From positions 379,867 through 443,866 of the forward strand of contig JAHBUK010000002.1 of NCBI GenBank assembly GCA_019638115.1: 64,000 nt of DNA, read 5' to 3'. Under the pieces are notes generated by a model. The model worked only from the letters and a program-made list of their open reading frames with translations. It did no database searches and had not been told where the DNA came from. Position numbers and translations under genes: made by a program. This document shows positions 7,982 to 24,683 of this stretch, in pieces. The stretch comes from Flavobacteriales bacterium (lineage in GTDB: Bacteria > Bacteroidota > Bacteroidia > Flavobacteriales_F > PHOS-HE28). Position 1 is the stretch's first letter, and every line of letters starts with the position of its first letter.

Positions 7982-8875
7982 ATGGACGAACGTTTCCGCG
8001 GCCTTGGGGTCGCACTGGTAACCCCCTTCCGTTCCAACGGCCAGATCGACTACGCCGGCCTGGAGAAGCTCATCGAACACCAGATCACCGGTGGTGTGGA
8101 CTACGTGGTGAGCATGGGCACAACGGGCGAAAGCGTCACGCTCTCCAAGGCGGAGAAGCATGAGCTGCTGGCACAGACCATCGGCTTCGTGCGCAATCGG
8201 GTGCCGGTGGTGCTGGGCGTGGGGGGCAATCATACCGCGGAAGTGGTGGATACGCTCGGCGGCTTCGAGATGGACGGTGTGGATGCCATCCTCAGTGTGA
8301 GCCCATACTACAACAAACCCACGCAGGAGGGCATCTACCAGCATTACAAGGCCCTGGCCCAGGTGGCACTGCGGCCCATCATCCTGTACAACGTACCTGG
8401 ACGCACCGGCAGCAACATGACCGCCGACACCACGCTGCGGCTGGCCAAGGACTTCAAGAACATCATCGCCATCAAGGAAGCCAGCGCCAACCTGGACCAG
8501 ATGGGTCGCATCCTCAAGCACAAGCCGAAGGACTTCATGCTCATCAGTGGCGATGATGCGCTCACCCTGCCCATCATCGCCATGGGCGGCGAAGGCGTTA
8601 TCAGCGTGGTGGGCAATGCACTGCCGAACGAATTCAGCACGCTGGTGCAAGCCGCCTTGAAAGGCGACTTGGTGAGCGCCCGACGCGAACACCTCCGCCT
8701 GATCGAGGTCATCGACCTGCTCTTCGCTGAAGGCAACCCCGGAGGTATCAAGCACGTGTTGAAGGTGCTTGGCATCTGTGGCGATCACATGCGCCTGCCC
8801 TTGGTGAACATCAGCGAAGCCATTGCCAACAAGCTCTACAAGGCGCTGGCGGATGCGGAAGTGGTGAAGCTGTAG
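7982..8875 (+). CDS. dapA: 4-hydroxy-tetrahydrodipicolinate synthase DapA
   Basis: Condenses pyruvate with aspartate semialdehyde, the first committed step of lysine and diaminopimelate synthesis. The 297-residue TIM barrel shows the GTTGES motif, the catalytic tyrosine region LYNVPGRTGSNM and the Schiff-base lysine in IAIKEAS, all at the usual positions. It follows the prmC-ligA-DUF6913 run by 22 bases and may share that transcript. A hairpin with arms at 8874-8880 and 8907-8913 begins at the stop codon. Confidence 0.97.
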   Translation: MDERFRGLGVALVTPFRSNGQIDYAGLEKLIEHQITGGVDYVVSMGTTGESVTLSKAEKHELLAQTIGFVRNRVPVVLGVGGNHTAEVVDTLGGFEMDGVDAILSVSPYYNKPTQEGIYQHYKALAQVALRPIILYNVPGRTGSNMTADTTLRLAKDFKNIIAIKEASANLDQMGRILKHKPKDFMLISGDDALTLPIIAMGGEGVISVVGNALPNEFSTLVQAALKGDLVSARREHLRLIEVIDLLFAEGNPGGIKHVLKVLGICGDHMRLPLVNISEAIANKLYKALADAEVVKL

Positions 8876-8916
8876 GATCTCCGGAGGTCTTCGCAGCCCC
8901 TTTGCAAGATCCTGCG

Positions 8917-8955
8917 TGGCTGGAAATTCGCCACGCCGTGGCGAATTTCCAGCCA
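8917..8955. repeat. 39-base perfect palindrome (copy 1)
   Basis: Two 19-base arms around a single C at 8936, reading TGGCTGGAAATTCGCCACG on the left and its exact complement on the right. It lies immediately beyond the stop codon of the DUF4143 ATPase gene. Its inner 29 bases recur with one change at 10240-10268 on the other side of that gene. It could act as a terminator for dapA or the ATPase, or be a REP-like element. Confidence 0.9.
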
Positions 8956-8956
8956 T

Positions 8957-10192
8957 CTACCATTCCCACAAAGCGCTCAGCGGCACCGCGTGGATGTCCT
9001 TGTCGAATGGTGTGATGCCCAGTCCCGGGTGTAGCAGCAGGCCCCGCAGCCACTTGTCCCCGGCCACTTCCCGCAGGTGCTTCAGACCGGCCACATCGTT
9101 GCTTCCCACGGCCATGGCGGCCTTCACTTCGATACCCACGATGCGGCCCTTGTTGTCCTCCAGCACGATGTCCACCTCGCGACCGGCCTCGGTGCGGAAG
9201 TGGTAGGACTTCACCCGCAGCTTGCTCCAACCGGCCAGCTTCCGCAGTTCGTTCAGCACGAACGTCTCCAACAGCGGCCCGAACGCGGGGCTGTTCAGGA
9301 TGTCGGCAGCCGTGTCGATGCCGGCCAGGTGTGCCGCGAACCCGCTGTCGGTGAGGTGCAGTTTGGGAGCTTTCACCAGGCGCTTTCCCCGATGTGCATG
9401 CCATGCTTCCAAGGGCGTGCTCAGGAAGGTGGCCTCCAGAAGCGCCATGTACCTGCGCATGGTGCTGTGCGGTATGTCCAGCGTCCGGGACAGGTCGGCA
9501 AGGTTCAACAGGCCGCTGCTCCGCACGGCCAGGGCTTGCAGCAAGCGTGGCAGATCGGTGAGCCCCGTGATGTTGCTGATGTCCCTGACATCGCGTTGCA
9601 GGATACTGGTGATGTACGCGCTGTACCACGCATCGCGCCGGGTGGGATCCTTCCGCGTCATCACCTCCGGGTATCCCCCCGCTATCACCCGTGTGGCGAT
9701 CTGCTTGCGCTCCAAGGCTTGCGGGTCGCTCATTTTCGGCCGCGCCGCGAACACCTGGTCGATGAAGCCGCTTTTCCTCCCTTGCAACTCGTCCTGCGCA
9801 AAGGGGAAGAGCGGGAGTATCTCCATACGGCCGGCCAGTGAGTCGCCGAGCCTGGGAAGCACCAGCACATTGGCACTGCCGGTAAGCAGGAAACGCCCCG
9901 GCTTGCGTTCGCGGTCCACGGATGCCTTGATGGCCCGGAAGATGTTCGGCGCGTTCTGCACCTCGTCGATCACGGCCAGTTTGCCAAGCCCCTGAATGAA
10001 CGCCGGCGGATCGGCCAACGCAGCCTCCAGGGTGGGGTGGTCATCAAGGGTCACGTACTGTGCTCCGCGCTCTTTTGCAATGGCCTTCACCAGCGTGGTC
10101 TTGCCGGTCTGCCGCGCACCATGGAGCAGCACCACAGGGGTGTCCTTCAGCGCAATATCCACGGCATGCCTCAGGTTCCTCGACTTTTCCAT
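8957..10192 (-). CDS. AAA_14/DUF4143 ATPase
   Basis: A 411-residue protein of the archaeal-type AAA_14 plus DUF4143 family, which is common, patchily distributed and functionally uncharacterised. Walker A is at about residues 24-32 (GARQTGKTT), Walker B near LAVIDEVQNAP, then LLTGSANVLVL; the DUF4143 domain occupies the C-terminal half, including a nuclease-like stretch near GREVDIVLED. It stands alone between dapA and an exonuclease gene on the opposite strand and is bracketed by two near-identical palindromes. A weak -7-like TAGTTTCG lies just before the start. Looks like an inserted accessory gene. Confidence 0.9.
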   Translation of the reverse strand: MEKSRNLRHAVDIALKDTPVVLLHGARQTGKTTLVKAIAKERGAQYVTLDDHPTLEAALADPPAFIQGLGKLAVIDEVQNAPNIFRAIKASVDRERKPGRFLLTGSANVLVLPRLGDSLAGRMEILPLFPFAQDELQGRKSGFIDQVFAARPKMSDPQALERKQIATRVIAGGYPEVMTRKDPTRRDAWYSAYITSILQRDVRDISNITGLTDLPRLLQALAVRSSGLLNLADLSRTLDIPHSTMRRYMALLEATFLSTPLEAWHAHRGKRLVKAPKLHLTDSGFAAHLAGIDTAADILNSPAFGPLLETFVLNELRKLAGWSKLRVKSYHFRTEAGREVDIVLEDNKGRIVGIEVKAAMAVGSNDVAGLKHLREVAGDKWLRGLLLHPGLGITPFDKDIHAVPLSALWEW

Positions 10193-10239
10193 GATGCGAA
10201 ACTACGTCTTGATGGTTGGATATCCGCCACAAGGTGGTG

Positions 10240-10268
10240 GGAAATTCGCTACGCCGTGGCGAATTTCC
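10240..10268. repeat. 29-base palindrome (copy 2)
   Basis: Arms of 14 bases around position 10254, with one G-T wobble. It matches the core of the palindrome at 8917-8955 in 28 of 29 positions. GATATC occurs on either side of it (10219-10224 and 10269-10274), and a smaller CCAC/GTGG hairpin precedes it. It lies in the gap between the ATPase gene and the exonuclease gene. Confidence 0.9.
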
Positions 10269-10342
10269 GATATCAGAACACCGTGGTCGAGCACCATTTC
10301 CGATCGTTGGTGCGATCTTCGAGCCTACCTTTCACCACCACC

Positions 10343-10948
10343 ATGGACTTCCTTGCCCTCGACTTCGAGACCGCCACTGCGCAGCCGGACAGCCCCTGTG
10401 AGTTGGGCATTGCCGTGGTGCGCGGCGGCGTGGTCCGCGAGGTTCGCAACTGGCTGATAAAGCCCCCGCAGTGGCCCTACTTCAGCCCTTACAACATAGC
10501 GGTGCACGGCATCACGCCCCAGGATGTGGCCGGAGCACCGCGCTGGCAACAGATATGGAACGAGGTGTCCGACCTGCTTCACGAGCAGGTGGTGGTGGCC
10601 CACAACGCGGCCTTCGACATGAACGTGCTCCGGAGCACCCTGGCCGCGCACGGTCTGGCTCACCCCACGTTCGAGTACTTCTGCAGCGTAAGTATGTCCC
10701 GCAAGGTCTGGCCGGGGCGCGCTTCCTATGGTCTTCGCCCCATGTGCGACATGCACGGCATCAGCTTCAAGCACCACCGCGCGGGAAACGATGCTGAAGC
10801 CACGGCCGAACTGGTGCTGCGTGCCACGGACCTGCGGCCGTCATTCGACATCACGCAGTTCCTGCTGGACCTGAAAGTGAAACGCGGGGCATTCTACCCG
10901 GAAGGGCACCGCAGCCCCAGCGGCAAAGTGGTTTCAGCTGTGATCTGA
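10343..10948 (+). CDS. DnaQ-like 3'-5' exonuclease (DEDDh)
   Basis: A 201-residue single-domain nuclease. The first metal-binding motif is right at the N-terminus (FLALDFETA), motif II is in VVAHNAAFDMNVL, and motif III is in FKHHRAGNDAEATAELV, giving the DEDDh set. It resembles the epsilon or PolC proofreading exonuclease family without a polymerase or helicase attached. The ATG at 10343 was chosen because the conserved motif starts within four residues of it. Possible proofreading or repair role; no partner gene nearby. Confidence 0.88.
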   Translation: MDFLALDFETATAQPDSPCELGIAVVRGGVVREVRNWLIKPPQWPYFSPYNIAVHGITPQDVAGAPRWQQIWNEVSDLLHEQVVVAHNAAFDMNVLRSTLAAHGLAHPTFEYFCSVSMSRKVWPGRASYGLRPMCDMHGISFKHHRAGNDAEATAELVLRATDLRPSFDITQFLLDLKVKRGAFYPEGHRSPSGKVVSAVI

Positions 10949-23334: not shown

Positions 23335-23820
23335 TCACAAACACTTGAACTGATCAAACGGCTCCAAACAATCCTGGCACTTCCACAGCGCCTTGCAGGC
23401 CGTGCTGCCGAAGAGGGAGAGCATCACGGTATTCGTGGATCCGCATTGCGGGCAGGCCACCACGGGTTGTTCGCCTTTCAGCGCGCGGATGTCGGCGCTC
23501 ATCTCCGGCGGGGCGATGCCGTATTCCTTCAGCTTGCGTTTGCCCTCGTCGGTGATCCAGTCGGTGGTCCAGGCGGGGGAGAGGGTCAGCTTCACCTCCA
23601 CCTCGGGCACGCCGGCCTCCAGCAGTTCCTTCTTGATGTCGGTCGCCATCACATCCATGGCCGGGCAGCCGGTGTAGGTGGGGGTGATGGTGATGATGGC
23701 CTTGCCGCTCTCATCCACCTCCACGCCGCGCACCACGCCCAACTCCAGCACATTGATCACCGGGATCTCCGGGTCCTTCACGTAGTCGAGGAGCTCGAGG
23801 ATGCGGTGTTTGGTGATCAT
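23335..23820 (-). CDS. paaD: Phenylacetyl-CoA epoxidase maturation factor PaaD
   Basis: A 161-residue MIP18-family protein needed to mature the phenylacetyl-CoA epoxidase. The N-terminal domain shows DYVKDPEIPVINVLELGVVR and TYTGCPAMDVMATDI; the C-terminus is a zinc-ribbon-like region with cysteines in CPQCGS and CKALWKCQDC and the family ending FDQFKCL. The ATG at 23820 is preferred; a GTG at 23829 overlaps the HEPN gene stop. Its first 96 bases after codon 3 are duplicated at 24563-24658, across a toxin-antitoxin pair, so its present start is probably a rebuilt one. Confidence 0.9.
   Translation of the reverse strand: MITKHRILELLDYVKDPEIPVINVLELGVVRGVEVDESGKAIITITPTYTGCPAMDVMATDIKKELLEAGVPEVEVKLTLSPAWTTDWITDEGKRKLKEYGIAPPEMSADIRALKGEQPVVACPQCGSTNTVMLSLFGSTACKALWKCQDCLEPFDQFKCL
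23715..23810 (-). repeat. Direct repeat copy 1 (paaD 5' end)
   Basis: 96 bases of the paaD coding start, matching 24563-24658 at 90 positions. The copies lie 848 bases apart and bracket the MNT/HEPN pair. Confidence 0.93.
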
Positions 23821-23825
23821 GGTGT

Positions 23826-24224
23826 TCACTCCTTGTCAGTGATCATGGCTTTGATCGTGCCGATCATCATCACGGTGTGCTCCCGTAGCTGGACCACCAC
23901 GTCACCTTCCACGCTGACGAAGTCGTCATAGTCGCCGCTGTGCCGACGCTCGAACAACTCTGAATACGCCAGGCCAAGATCCTCCGGGATCTTTCCTGTG
24001 GACAGGAAAAGGAGGCTGAATTGTTGGCGAACGCCTTTGTGGGTCTTGGGGTGGATGCCTTGTGTGGCAAGCAAGGCCACGGCCGCATAGAACATGGCAT
24101 AATACAGCCTGTTCACGCTGCCCCGCCACAGCTCCTGATCGATTAGTAATGCAGCCTCGGTCAGCGCTTCGTGAGCACGTTCCATCCGGTATCGAACCAG
24201 TTCCTCGCGCTCCTCGGGCCTCAT
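23826..24224 (-). CDS. HEPN-domain toxin, HepT-like
   Basis: A 132-residue all-helical protein of the HEPN family. RMERAHEALTEAALLIDQELWRGSVNRLYYAMFYAAVALL is the characteristic double helix with the R..N-R-LYY motif, and HKGVRQQF and RRHSGDYDD follow. Partner of the nucleotidyltransferase encoded just upstream with a four-base overlap. In characterised MntA-HepT pairs the HEPN protein is an RNase toxin that the partner inactivates by AMPylation. The ATG at 24224 is set by that overlap. It ends six bases from paaD. Confidence 0.9.
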   Translation of the reverse strand: MRPEEREELVRYRMERAHEALTEAALLIDQELWRGSVNRLYYAMFYAAVALLATQGIHPKTHKGVRQQFSLLFLSTGKIPEDLGLAYSELFERRHSGDYDDFVSVEGDVVVQLREHTVMMIGTIKAMITDKE

Positions 24225-24538
24225 AGCGATACTGCTTCCCGCTGCACGTTGTAGAAGAAGGGCGTGCCTTTGTGCCGCTCCAGCCACTCCTTACGGGTGT
24301 ACACCAGCGGGCTGATCATGGTGCCAGTGCTCCACTCCAAGCGATACAACGGCGATTTGATGCGCATCCCCTCGTCGTAGCTAACCTTGTCGCCCTCGGG
24401 CAGCAGGATGAGCAGGTCAACATCCGATTCCGGGCCTTGCTCGCCGCGCGCGTACGAGCCGTACACCAGCACCTGCGCACTGGGCTCCACTTCGGCCACG
24501 CGGCGTTTGATCTCAAGAAGGATATTAGGGGCGGTCAT
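24221..24538 (-). CDS. MNT nucleotidyltransferase antitoxin, MntA-like
   Basis: A 105-residue minimal nucleotidyltransferase. The catalytic motif is VLVYGSYARGEQGPESDVDLLIL, i.e. GSxxRG...SDxDL, complete, so AMP-transfer activity is likely. Upstream partner of the HEPN protein; overlap ATGA. A perfect -7 promoter element ends seven bases before its ATG, so the pair has its own promoter inside the paa cluster. The promoter and ATG lie within the decayed end of the duplicated paaD stub. Confidence 0.92.
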   Translation of the reverse strand: MTAPNILLEIKRRVAEVEPSAQVLVYGSYARGEQGPESDVDLLILLPEGDKVSYDEGMRIKSPLYRLEWSTGTMISPLVYTRKEWLERHKGTPFFYNVQREAVSL

Positions 24539-24683
24539 GATGTACCAAAGCTACGATTCGGGCCACCTCCACGCCGCGCTCCACGCCCAACTCCAACACG
24601 TTGAACACCGGGATCTCCGGGGCCTTCACGTAGTCGAGGAGTTCGAGGATGCGGTGTTCGGATATGTGCGTCTTCGGATCCAT
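24525..24683 (-). pseudogene. Truncated 5' copy of paaD
   Basis: Starts with its own ATG at 24683 and reads MDPKTHISEHRILELLDYVK, then APEIPVFNVLELGVERGVEV, after which homology to PaaD stops and the frame ends at 24525. Ninety-six bases are 94% identical to the start of intact paaD. Position directly after paaC makes this the likely original paaD start, cut off by the toxin-antitoxin insertion. Its last codons overlap the antitoxin gene. Amino-acid changes (D to A, V to E) suggest it is no longer selected. Confidence 0.88.
24546..24553 (-). promoter_or_regulatory. -7 element for the MNT/HEPN pair
   Basis: CAAAGCTA on the plus strand reads TAGCTTTG on the minus strand, matching TAnnTTTG, seven bases before the antitoxin ATG at 24538. 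Confidence 0.65.

Follow-up and report, generated by a model that had tools for sequence, protein, structure and literature searches.

An AAA_14-DUF4143 (PDC-S01) gene between two matched palindromes, candidate binding sites of its own product

The window (the whole stretch of 64,000 nucleotides that was analysed) contains one AAA_14-DUF4143 gene with a palindrome at each end, set between a dapA gene and an exonuclease-like gene. The features of this locus are as follows.

7982 to 8875, forward strand: dapA, the convergent neighbour and a marker of the site (open reading frame, named by reading its protein)
8917 to 8955, no strand: perfect 3' palindrome of 39 nt, 1 nt past the stop codon, a matched copy of the 5' site
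8957 to 10192, reverse strand: AAA_14-DUF4143 (PDC-S01) gene, 411 aa, identified by Pfam, PADLOC, an AlphaFold2 model and structure comparison
10197 to 10204, reverse strand: -7-like promoter element TAGTTTCG, between the 5' palindrome and the ATG, read from the sequence
10240 to 10268, no strand: 5' palindrome of 29 nt, 47 nt before the ATG, probable operator
10343 to 10948, forward strand: exonuclease-like gene, the divergent neighbour and other site marker (open reading frame, named by reading its protein)

The 3' palindrome has two 19-nt arms, 100% complementary, around a 1-nt centre, and the 5' palindrome has two 14-nt arms that are 93% complementary; the latter differs from the core of the former by one substitution. 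This geometry agrees with the original prediction, which had described a perfect 39-base palindrome after the stop codon, a 29-base version with one difference about 50 bases upstream of the start, and no other copy in the window. With up to 3 mismatches allowed, we found no further copy in the 64 kb (chance expectation 0.00, 100 shuffles), and the whole genome of 4,064,422 bases holds the palindrome at these two places only. It is also absent from genome_contigs (searched as an exact 29-mer with one free centre base) and from viral_contigs. The AAA_14-DUF4143 gene is the sole gene between the palindromes, where a Y1 transposase and TnpB are both absent, and no separate regulator gene was seen beside it. 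The 5' palindrome lies 36 nt upstream of the predicted -7 element, for which we take the consensus to be TAnnTTTG.

Two Pfam domains, AAA_14 (E 5.6e-26) and DUF4143 (E 2.9e-42), are found in the window protein, and the PADLOC profile PDC-S01 covers its whole length (E 1.3e-161, residues 4-410); an NCBIfam search gave no match, and a PDB sequence search returned weak AAA matches only. The domain make-up is an AAA/STAND-type ATPase, a winged-helix region and a PD-(D/E)XK nuclease domain. Residues K31, D76, E77, E309, D341, E355 and K357 are invariant across 59 sequences; they belong to the Walker and PD-(D/E)XK motifs. In the AlphaFold2 model (pLDDT 90.4, 59 sequences), residues 1-290, comprising the ATPase and the winged helix, best match the archaeal ATPase 2qen (Z 15.7, rmsd 4.9, 252 aligned), followed by the archaeal ATPase 2fna (Z 14.4, rmsd 4.7, 251 aligned) and then by the ATPase modules of NLR, CED-4 and Avs5. 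An earlier model from 10 sequences (pLDDT 61) had its C-terminal part resembling the Can2/Card1 nucleases at Z 8.3 and lower, a likeness that comes from this weak model, the match list of the pLDDT 90.4 model being filled by ATPases. Matches to the protein occur in 8 phage records, every one below 60% identity. On sequence grounds the window protein is a single-gene phage-defence candidate of the PDC-S01 type. That the family is widespread, as first proposed, is borne out by the accessible part of a 2026 survey, which puts PDC-S01 in fourth place by frequency among prokaryotic defences (29,494 instances in bacteria and 9,986 in archaea), gives its make-up as an ATPase joined to a PD-(D/E)XK member, and states that most such defence candidates still await experimental validation (PMC12988326).

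We compared the locus across a genus sample of 45 genomes, the window's own included. The protein has a match in 26 of these, and in 13 of the 45 the match reaches 63% identity or more across most of its length or as two fragments. Orthologues are framed by clear palindromes in seven other genomes (G044, G036, G022, G021, G016, G033 and G023), and the palindrome sequence often differs between these loci, yet matches within each locus. For example, all four arms read GGAATTTCGCCAC in G022, where the corresponding arms of the window read GGAAATTCGCCAC, and all four read TAAAATCCGCCAC in G023; in G016 each end carries four half-sites in a 57-nt array, and in G033 each end carries three half-sites. 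In G032, G018 and G030 the 3' boxes are visible too, weaker as palindromes, and the contig of G020 stops at the DUF4143 gene. In a test that used only the 8 loci whose two ends both have a clear palindrome, the mean identity of 5' and 3' copies is 0.85 within a locus and 0.645 between loci (permutation p 5e-5), even with the G033 row aligned out of register (identity 0.28), a fault that weakens the contrast. Judged by their loop bases, the two copies are mostly in direct orientation; those of G036 are inverted.

A search for the core pattern at up to 3 mismatches, which the original prediction had proposed as a check, finds it in 12 of the 45 genomes, always adjoining this gene or dapA; nowhere in the 45 does the core occur away from these two. 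This result bears on the idea, put forward with the original description, that the palindrome is a REP-like dispersed element moved by an outside enzyme. An accessory gene framed by palindromes is what such an element could produce, but there are two copies in the genome and, across the 45 genomes, none away from the gene or the dapA site, and in most relatives the 5' palindrome sits at the promoter; we give this explanation next to no credence. The same counts dispose of a common dispersed terminator.

The history of the site can be read downstream of dapA, which was found in 43 of the 45 genomes. An intact gene with palindromes lies there in five (G000, G044, G036, G016 and G021), a palindrome with a gene fragment in two (G010 and G028), and a palindrome without the gene in three (G011, G041 and G037, imperfect in G037), so that a solo palindrome or a decayed gene stands beside dapA in five of the 43. 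The remaining 33 of the 43 dapA sites have neither gene nor palindrome, and in many of these dapA and the exonuclease-like gene are separated by just 7-60 nt; the exonuclease-like gene is the neighbour of dapA in most relatives. The check for an empty locus in relatives, proposed with the original description, thus finds such sites. Both copies without the gene were found in none of the genomes examined. In G022 the gene adjoins the exonuclease-like gene and dapA sits on a different contig, and in a second species group the gene occupies another common site. The DUF4143 tree conflicts with the dapA tree in places (e.g. G016/G021 and G022), and closely similar DUF4143 genes are seen in distant species and at different sites. 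These conflicts, together with the varied states of the site, indicate a locus that is patchy and sometimes exchanged, mostly staying in place. In the window's family the gene appears to have been passed down largely at its site, without recent transposition, and the solo palindromes fit a deletion through recombination of the two direct copies. Separately, the gap between dapA and the exonuclease-like gene in G020, G023, G024 and G033 contains a different repeat family, in inverted copies GTTGTCAGTTG and CAACTGACAAC.

Beyond the genus, the upstream palindrome proves to be a trait of the family. Counting inverted repeats with a score of at least 9 and at most 75 nt before the start, we found a strong upstream repeat in 38 of 61 DUF4143 genes from other Bacteroidota (1 of 183 control windows) and in 48 of 76 genes of a cross-phylum set (2 of 228 control windows), so that controls reach this level in about 1% of cases; the other 23 of 61 and 28 of 76 genes have no strong upstream repeat. 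The Bacteroidota count covers 61 of 68 loci (5 had no gene found and 2 were too short), and the cross-phylum count covers 76 of 80 loci from the genome_contigs scan, those dropped having an incomplete start or insufficient flank. Cross-phylum positives fall into about ten phylum-level groups, as judged by record title. Inverted repeats downstream of the gene are found in 4 of 61 and 8 of 76 genes, respectively. The palindrome sequences are subfamily-specific, with cores such as GGAATTGAATTCC or TAAAGTTGAACTTTA.

The position of these palindromes relates them to the promoter. Among 146 Bacteroidota loci, TAnnTT[TC]G occurs within 60 nt upstream of the gene in 59, against 9.1 expected, and in 37 of those 59 at -15 to -11; the right edge of the palindrome lies mostly at -20 to 0. 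Taken together, the positions of the -7-like element and of the palindrome's edge indicate that the palindrome overlaps the core promoter in Bacteroidota. The window's own family is an exception, its 5' palindrome lying further upstream, ahead of the -7 element. A palindromic site at the gene's own promoter, as expected of an operator, is thus found family-wide. Among plasmid relatives at ~49% identity, of which we inspected 8 of 415 records, three Azotobacter loci have a 41-47-nt palindrome across the start codon and a Pseudomonas mendocina locus has a weaker form of it. In four alphaproteobacterial plasmid loci (L455, L456, L458 and L459), direct half-sites such as TTTAAATTGGACG replace the palindrome upstream of the start; their best spacing is exactly 22 nt in 4 of 4 loci, significant in 2 of 4.

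Could the palindromes instead act as RNA hairpins, the 3' copy as a terminator and the 5' copy as a leader hairpin? The 3' palindrome does lie directly past the stop codon, between convergent genes, and palindromes persist at dapA where the gene is absent. Against this, no intrinsic terminator (a hairpin followed by a T-run) was found in region 8700-10500 and no Rfam family matched at the locus, the 5' site of the window's family lies upstream of the predicted promoter element, and the two ends vary in concert, something that pairing within each hairpin would not by itself require. Relatives with direct half-sites in place of the palindrome point the same way: half-site arrays, whether inverted or direct, would be natural targets for a DNA-binding protein, and RNA hairpins account for them poorly. 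We consider this explanation improbable.

Turning to the 3' end, we asked how often the downstream copy recurs. The input was 62 genus loci (broken or duplicate rows excluded), 61 from the phylum set and 76 from the cross-phylum set, of which 143 had both a 5' palindrome and enough 3' flank; because the null of 1144 pairings reached 21.0, the threshold was set to 21.5. At this strict threshold a matching 3' copy lies within 120 nt of the stop codon in 14 of the 143 loci (genus 10/41, phylum set 1/45, cross-phylum set 3/57). It recurs in separate subfamilies, namely the window's family and the TTTGGGAATCC family (L105 and L106), and in the single loci L248, L320, L321 and L340; a looser flank comparison adds the pair L034/L140. 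These two, at different sites, align from -38 to stop+105 with 83% identity, and L107 aligns with L025 and L106 from about -45 to stop+48/+30 with 88-89% identity. In several members, then, the unit conserved between different genomic sites stops at the palindromes. At the sites of L026, L036 and L034, the flanks of the available relatives are too diverged for base-exact junctions. A side observation concerns L403 (G036): at the L036 site, a lone hairpin with core TTCTAAAGTTGTACTTTGAAA follows the conserved host gene, with no DUF4143 gene beside it; this core resembles the palindromes of the L036 family.

A conserved unit bounded by palindromes is expected of mobile ends, and raises the possibility that the palindromes are the ends of an autonomous one-gene mobile element, whose ATPase-nuclease would bind both and excise or insert the unit. 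Copies at different sites align from palindrome outer edge to outer edge, the 5' and 3' ends are matched, solo palindromes and empty sites occur at dapA, and closely similar genes appear in distant species. However, selection on operator, gene and 3' site would give much the same conserved unit, and several features do not fit: the ends are mostly direct rather than inverted repeats, none of the genomes examined has multiple copies of one element, the 3' end is absent in most family members, the window's family keeps to two sites over large divergence, and its locus has no target duplication outside the palindromes. We regard such an element as rather unlikely. The original interpretation is supported in part: the symmetry is tied to the gene and recurs around orthologues at a patchy locus, which looks to have been inherited mostly in place.

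Some other DUF4143 genes are flanked in a different way. About a dozen of those in the genus sit between 30-147-nt duplications of the end of a host gene; at L117 (G020), L121 (G032), L128 and L033 (G034), L130 (G021) and L134 (G030), 53-147 nt of the ends of conserved host genes are duplicated. One case resolved to the base is L117, where a 64-nt duplication surrounds the insert, relatives without the gene have one contiguous copy, and the host gene, present in 40 of 45 genomes, has a second partial end copy beside it only in G020. Insertion with long target duplication is a known process (Nobusato et al. 2000, as cited in the accessible part of PMC1643837). Flank repeats occur at 24 of 68 DUF4143 loci (the 68 including a few duplicates and gene fragments, the 24 including palindrome pairs) and at 8 of 304 control ORFs, two of which are themselves DUF4143 genes; this contrast is biased, since the controls are all ORFs of two stretches and by expectation mostly core. 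In a 444-kb scan of the window's own genome, several further accessory inserts proved to lie between gene-end duplications of 77-140 nt. We therefore dropped long target duplication as a DUF4143-specific trait: the process is generic, with nothing special to DUF4143.

These insertions suggest a further explanation, that the window's gene was inserted in the same generic way and that the two palindromes are nothing more than the two copies of its target. The empty-site proof at L117 and the several genus genes between host-gene-end duplications speak for it, but the only repeat shared by the upstream and downstream sides of the window's locus is the palindrome, with no target duplication outside it, and the two copies have remained matched while diverging between species. 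The palindrome also accompanies the gene at two different sites and is absent from the rest of these genomes, and so was not a pre-existing target. We judge this explanation very improbable.

Several other repeats were seen in the same genomes. At ~23715-24661 of the window, a HEPN-like and nucleotidyltransferase-like pair, of toxin-antitoxin type by protein reading, lies between two 99-nt copies of a host-gene end (93%), an insertion with long target duplication. In L003, L110 and L130 the host-gene end is present three times; another small ORF separates the first copy from the second, and the DUF4143 gene the second from the third, the result of repeated insertions at one gene end. Elsewhere in the window's genome, C2:87889-95971 (L197:7889-15971) holds an array of 120-140-nt repeats spaced 1.5-2.5 kb, each framed by CTAAACGCCGGCAGG...CTGCTGGCGTTTAGGTGCTGTT; we take it to resemble integron-type attC sites. 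G033:C1:112299-112866 (L148) contains, by eye, a REP-associated-transposase-like gene among many CAAGGTC...GACCTTG repeats.

What function would account for a private palindrome at the promoter and, in some subfamilies, a matched copy at the stop codon? We favour, with somewhat more than even confidence, the view that both palindromes are DNA-binding sites of the encoded protein, the 5' copy an autoregulatory operator and the 3' copy bracketing the gene. The gene's own product is proposed as the binder because the 5' palindrome belongs to the promoter region in most members from other genera and phyla. From the operator the protein would hold a potentially harmful nuclease low; in the few subfamilies with a matched, mostly direct copy at the stop codon, it could occupy or bridge both gene ends, and recombination between the two copies would delete the gene and leave one palindrome. 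Each DUF4143 protein would recognise its own site, and the 3' site would stay matched to the 5' site because the same protein must bind both. The geometry, its recurrence, the within-locus match, the promoter overlap, the solo palindromes and the gene-less sites are observed; binding, repression, bridging and the action of the nuclease in defence we infer. Own-site recognition is the simplest account of the framing in the genus, the promoter trait of the family and the matched 3' copy taken together.

Several considerations weigh against this proposal. The 23 of 61 and 28 of 76 genes with no strong upstream repeat do not fit it; the 3' copy, the most conspicuous feature here, is present in only 14 of 143 loci, and a simple operator needs no second site; gene conversion, in place of shared recognition, could also keep the ends matched; the winged helix of STAND ATPases often does not bind DNA, so that this region may not be the one that reads the site; and the palindrome-bounded unit conserved between different sites in several members would suit mobile ends as well. 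A bolder version, in which the PDC-S01 gene and its matched ends would form a self-sufficient element whose own ATPase-nuclease loops, cuts out or moves the gene, strikes us as unlikely; if it were true, a very common candidate defence gene would double as a mobile element of a new kind, one that lacks any known transposase. Under the favoured reading, autoregulation by the gene's own product, the private upstream palindrome probably shows which DNA each protein grips. PDC-S01 is very common, and a private palindrome or half-site array before most PDC-S01 genes offers a concrete sequence-level guess at the DNA recognised, which opens ligand, regulation and perhaps activation to direct tests in many members at once.

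It is instructive to compare the locus with known systems. PDC-S01 itself, in the accessible part of its description, shares the whole-length profile match, the single gene and the domain make-up (PMC12988326); the upstream palindromes and matched ends of the window gene go unmentioned in the parts of the PDC-S01 literature found. Our literature search, which left most subscription papers and preprints outside its scope and is weak evidence to that extent, returned nothing on DUF4143 together with palindromes. The ATPase and winged-helix part superposes with 2qen, 2fna and the STAND modules of NLR, CED-4 and Avs5, but the window protein has a C-terminal PD-(D/E)XK nuclease domain where those modules have repeat sensors. 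PATEs and IS605-type elements, in the accessible part of PMC3119063, likewise have palindromes near both ends and on loss of the core leave one palindrome; the window's locus differs in having no Y1 transposase, TnpB or dispersed copies, its gene being an ATPase-nuclease. REP elements or REPINs with a RAYT need many dispersed copies, whereas the window's genome has the palindrome at two places only. Insertion with long target duplication describes other DUF4143 genes of the genus (30-147 nt) and is absent at the window's locus. In autoregulated single-gene or toxin-antitoxin operators a palindrome lies over the promoter, and DUF4143 genes share this: a gene-specific palindrome overlaps the core promoter of a gene whose product is potentially harmful. 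In contrast to toxin-antitoxin operators, the DUF4143 gene is without a separate regulator gene alongside, and some DUF4143 subfamilies add to this arrangement a matched site at the stop codon.
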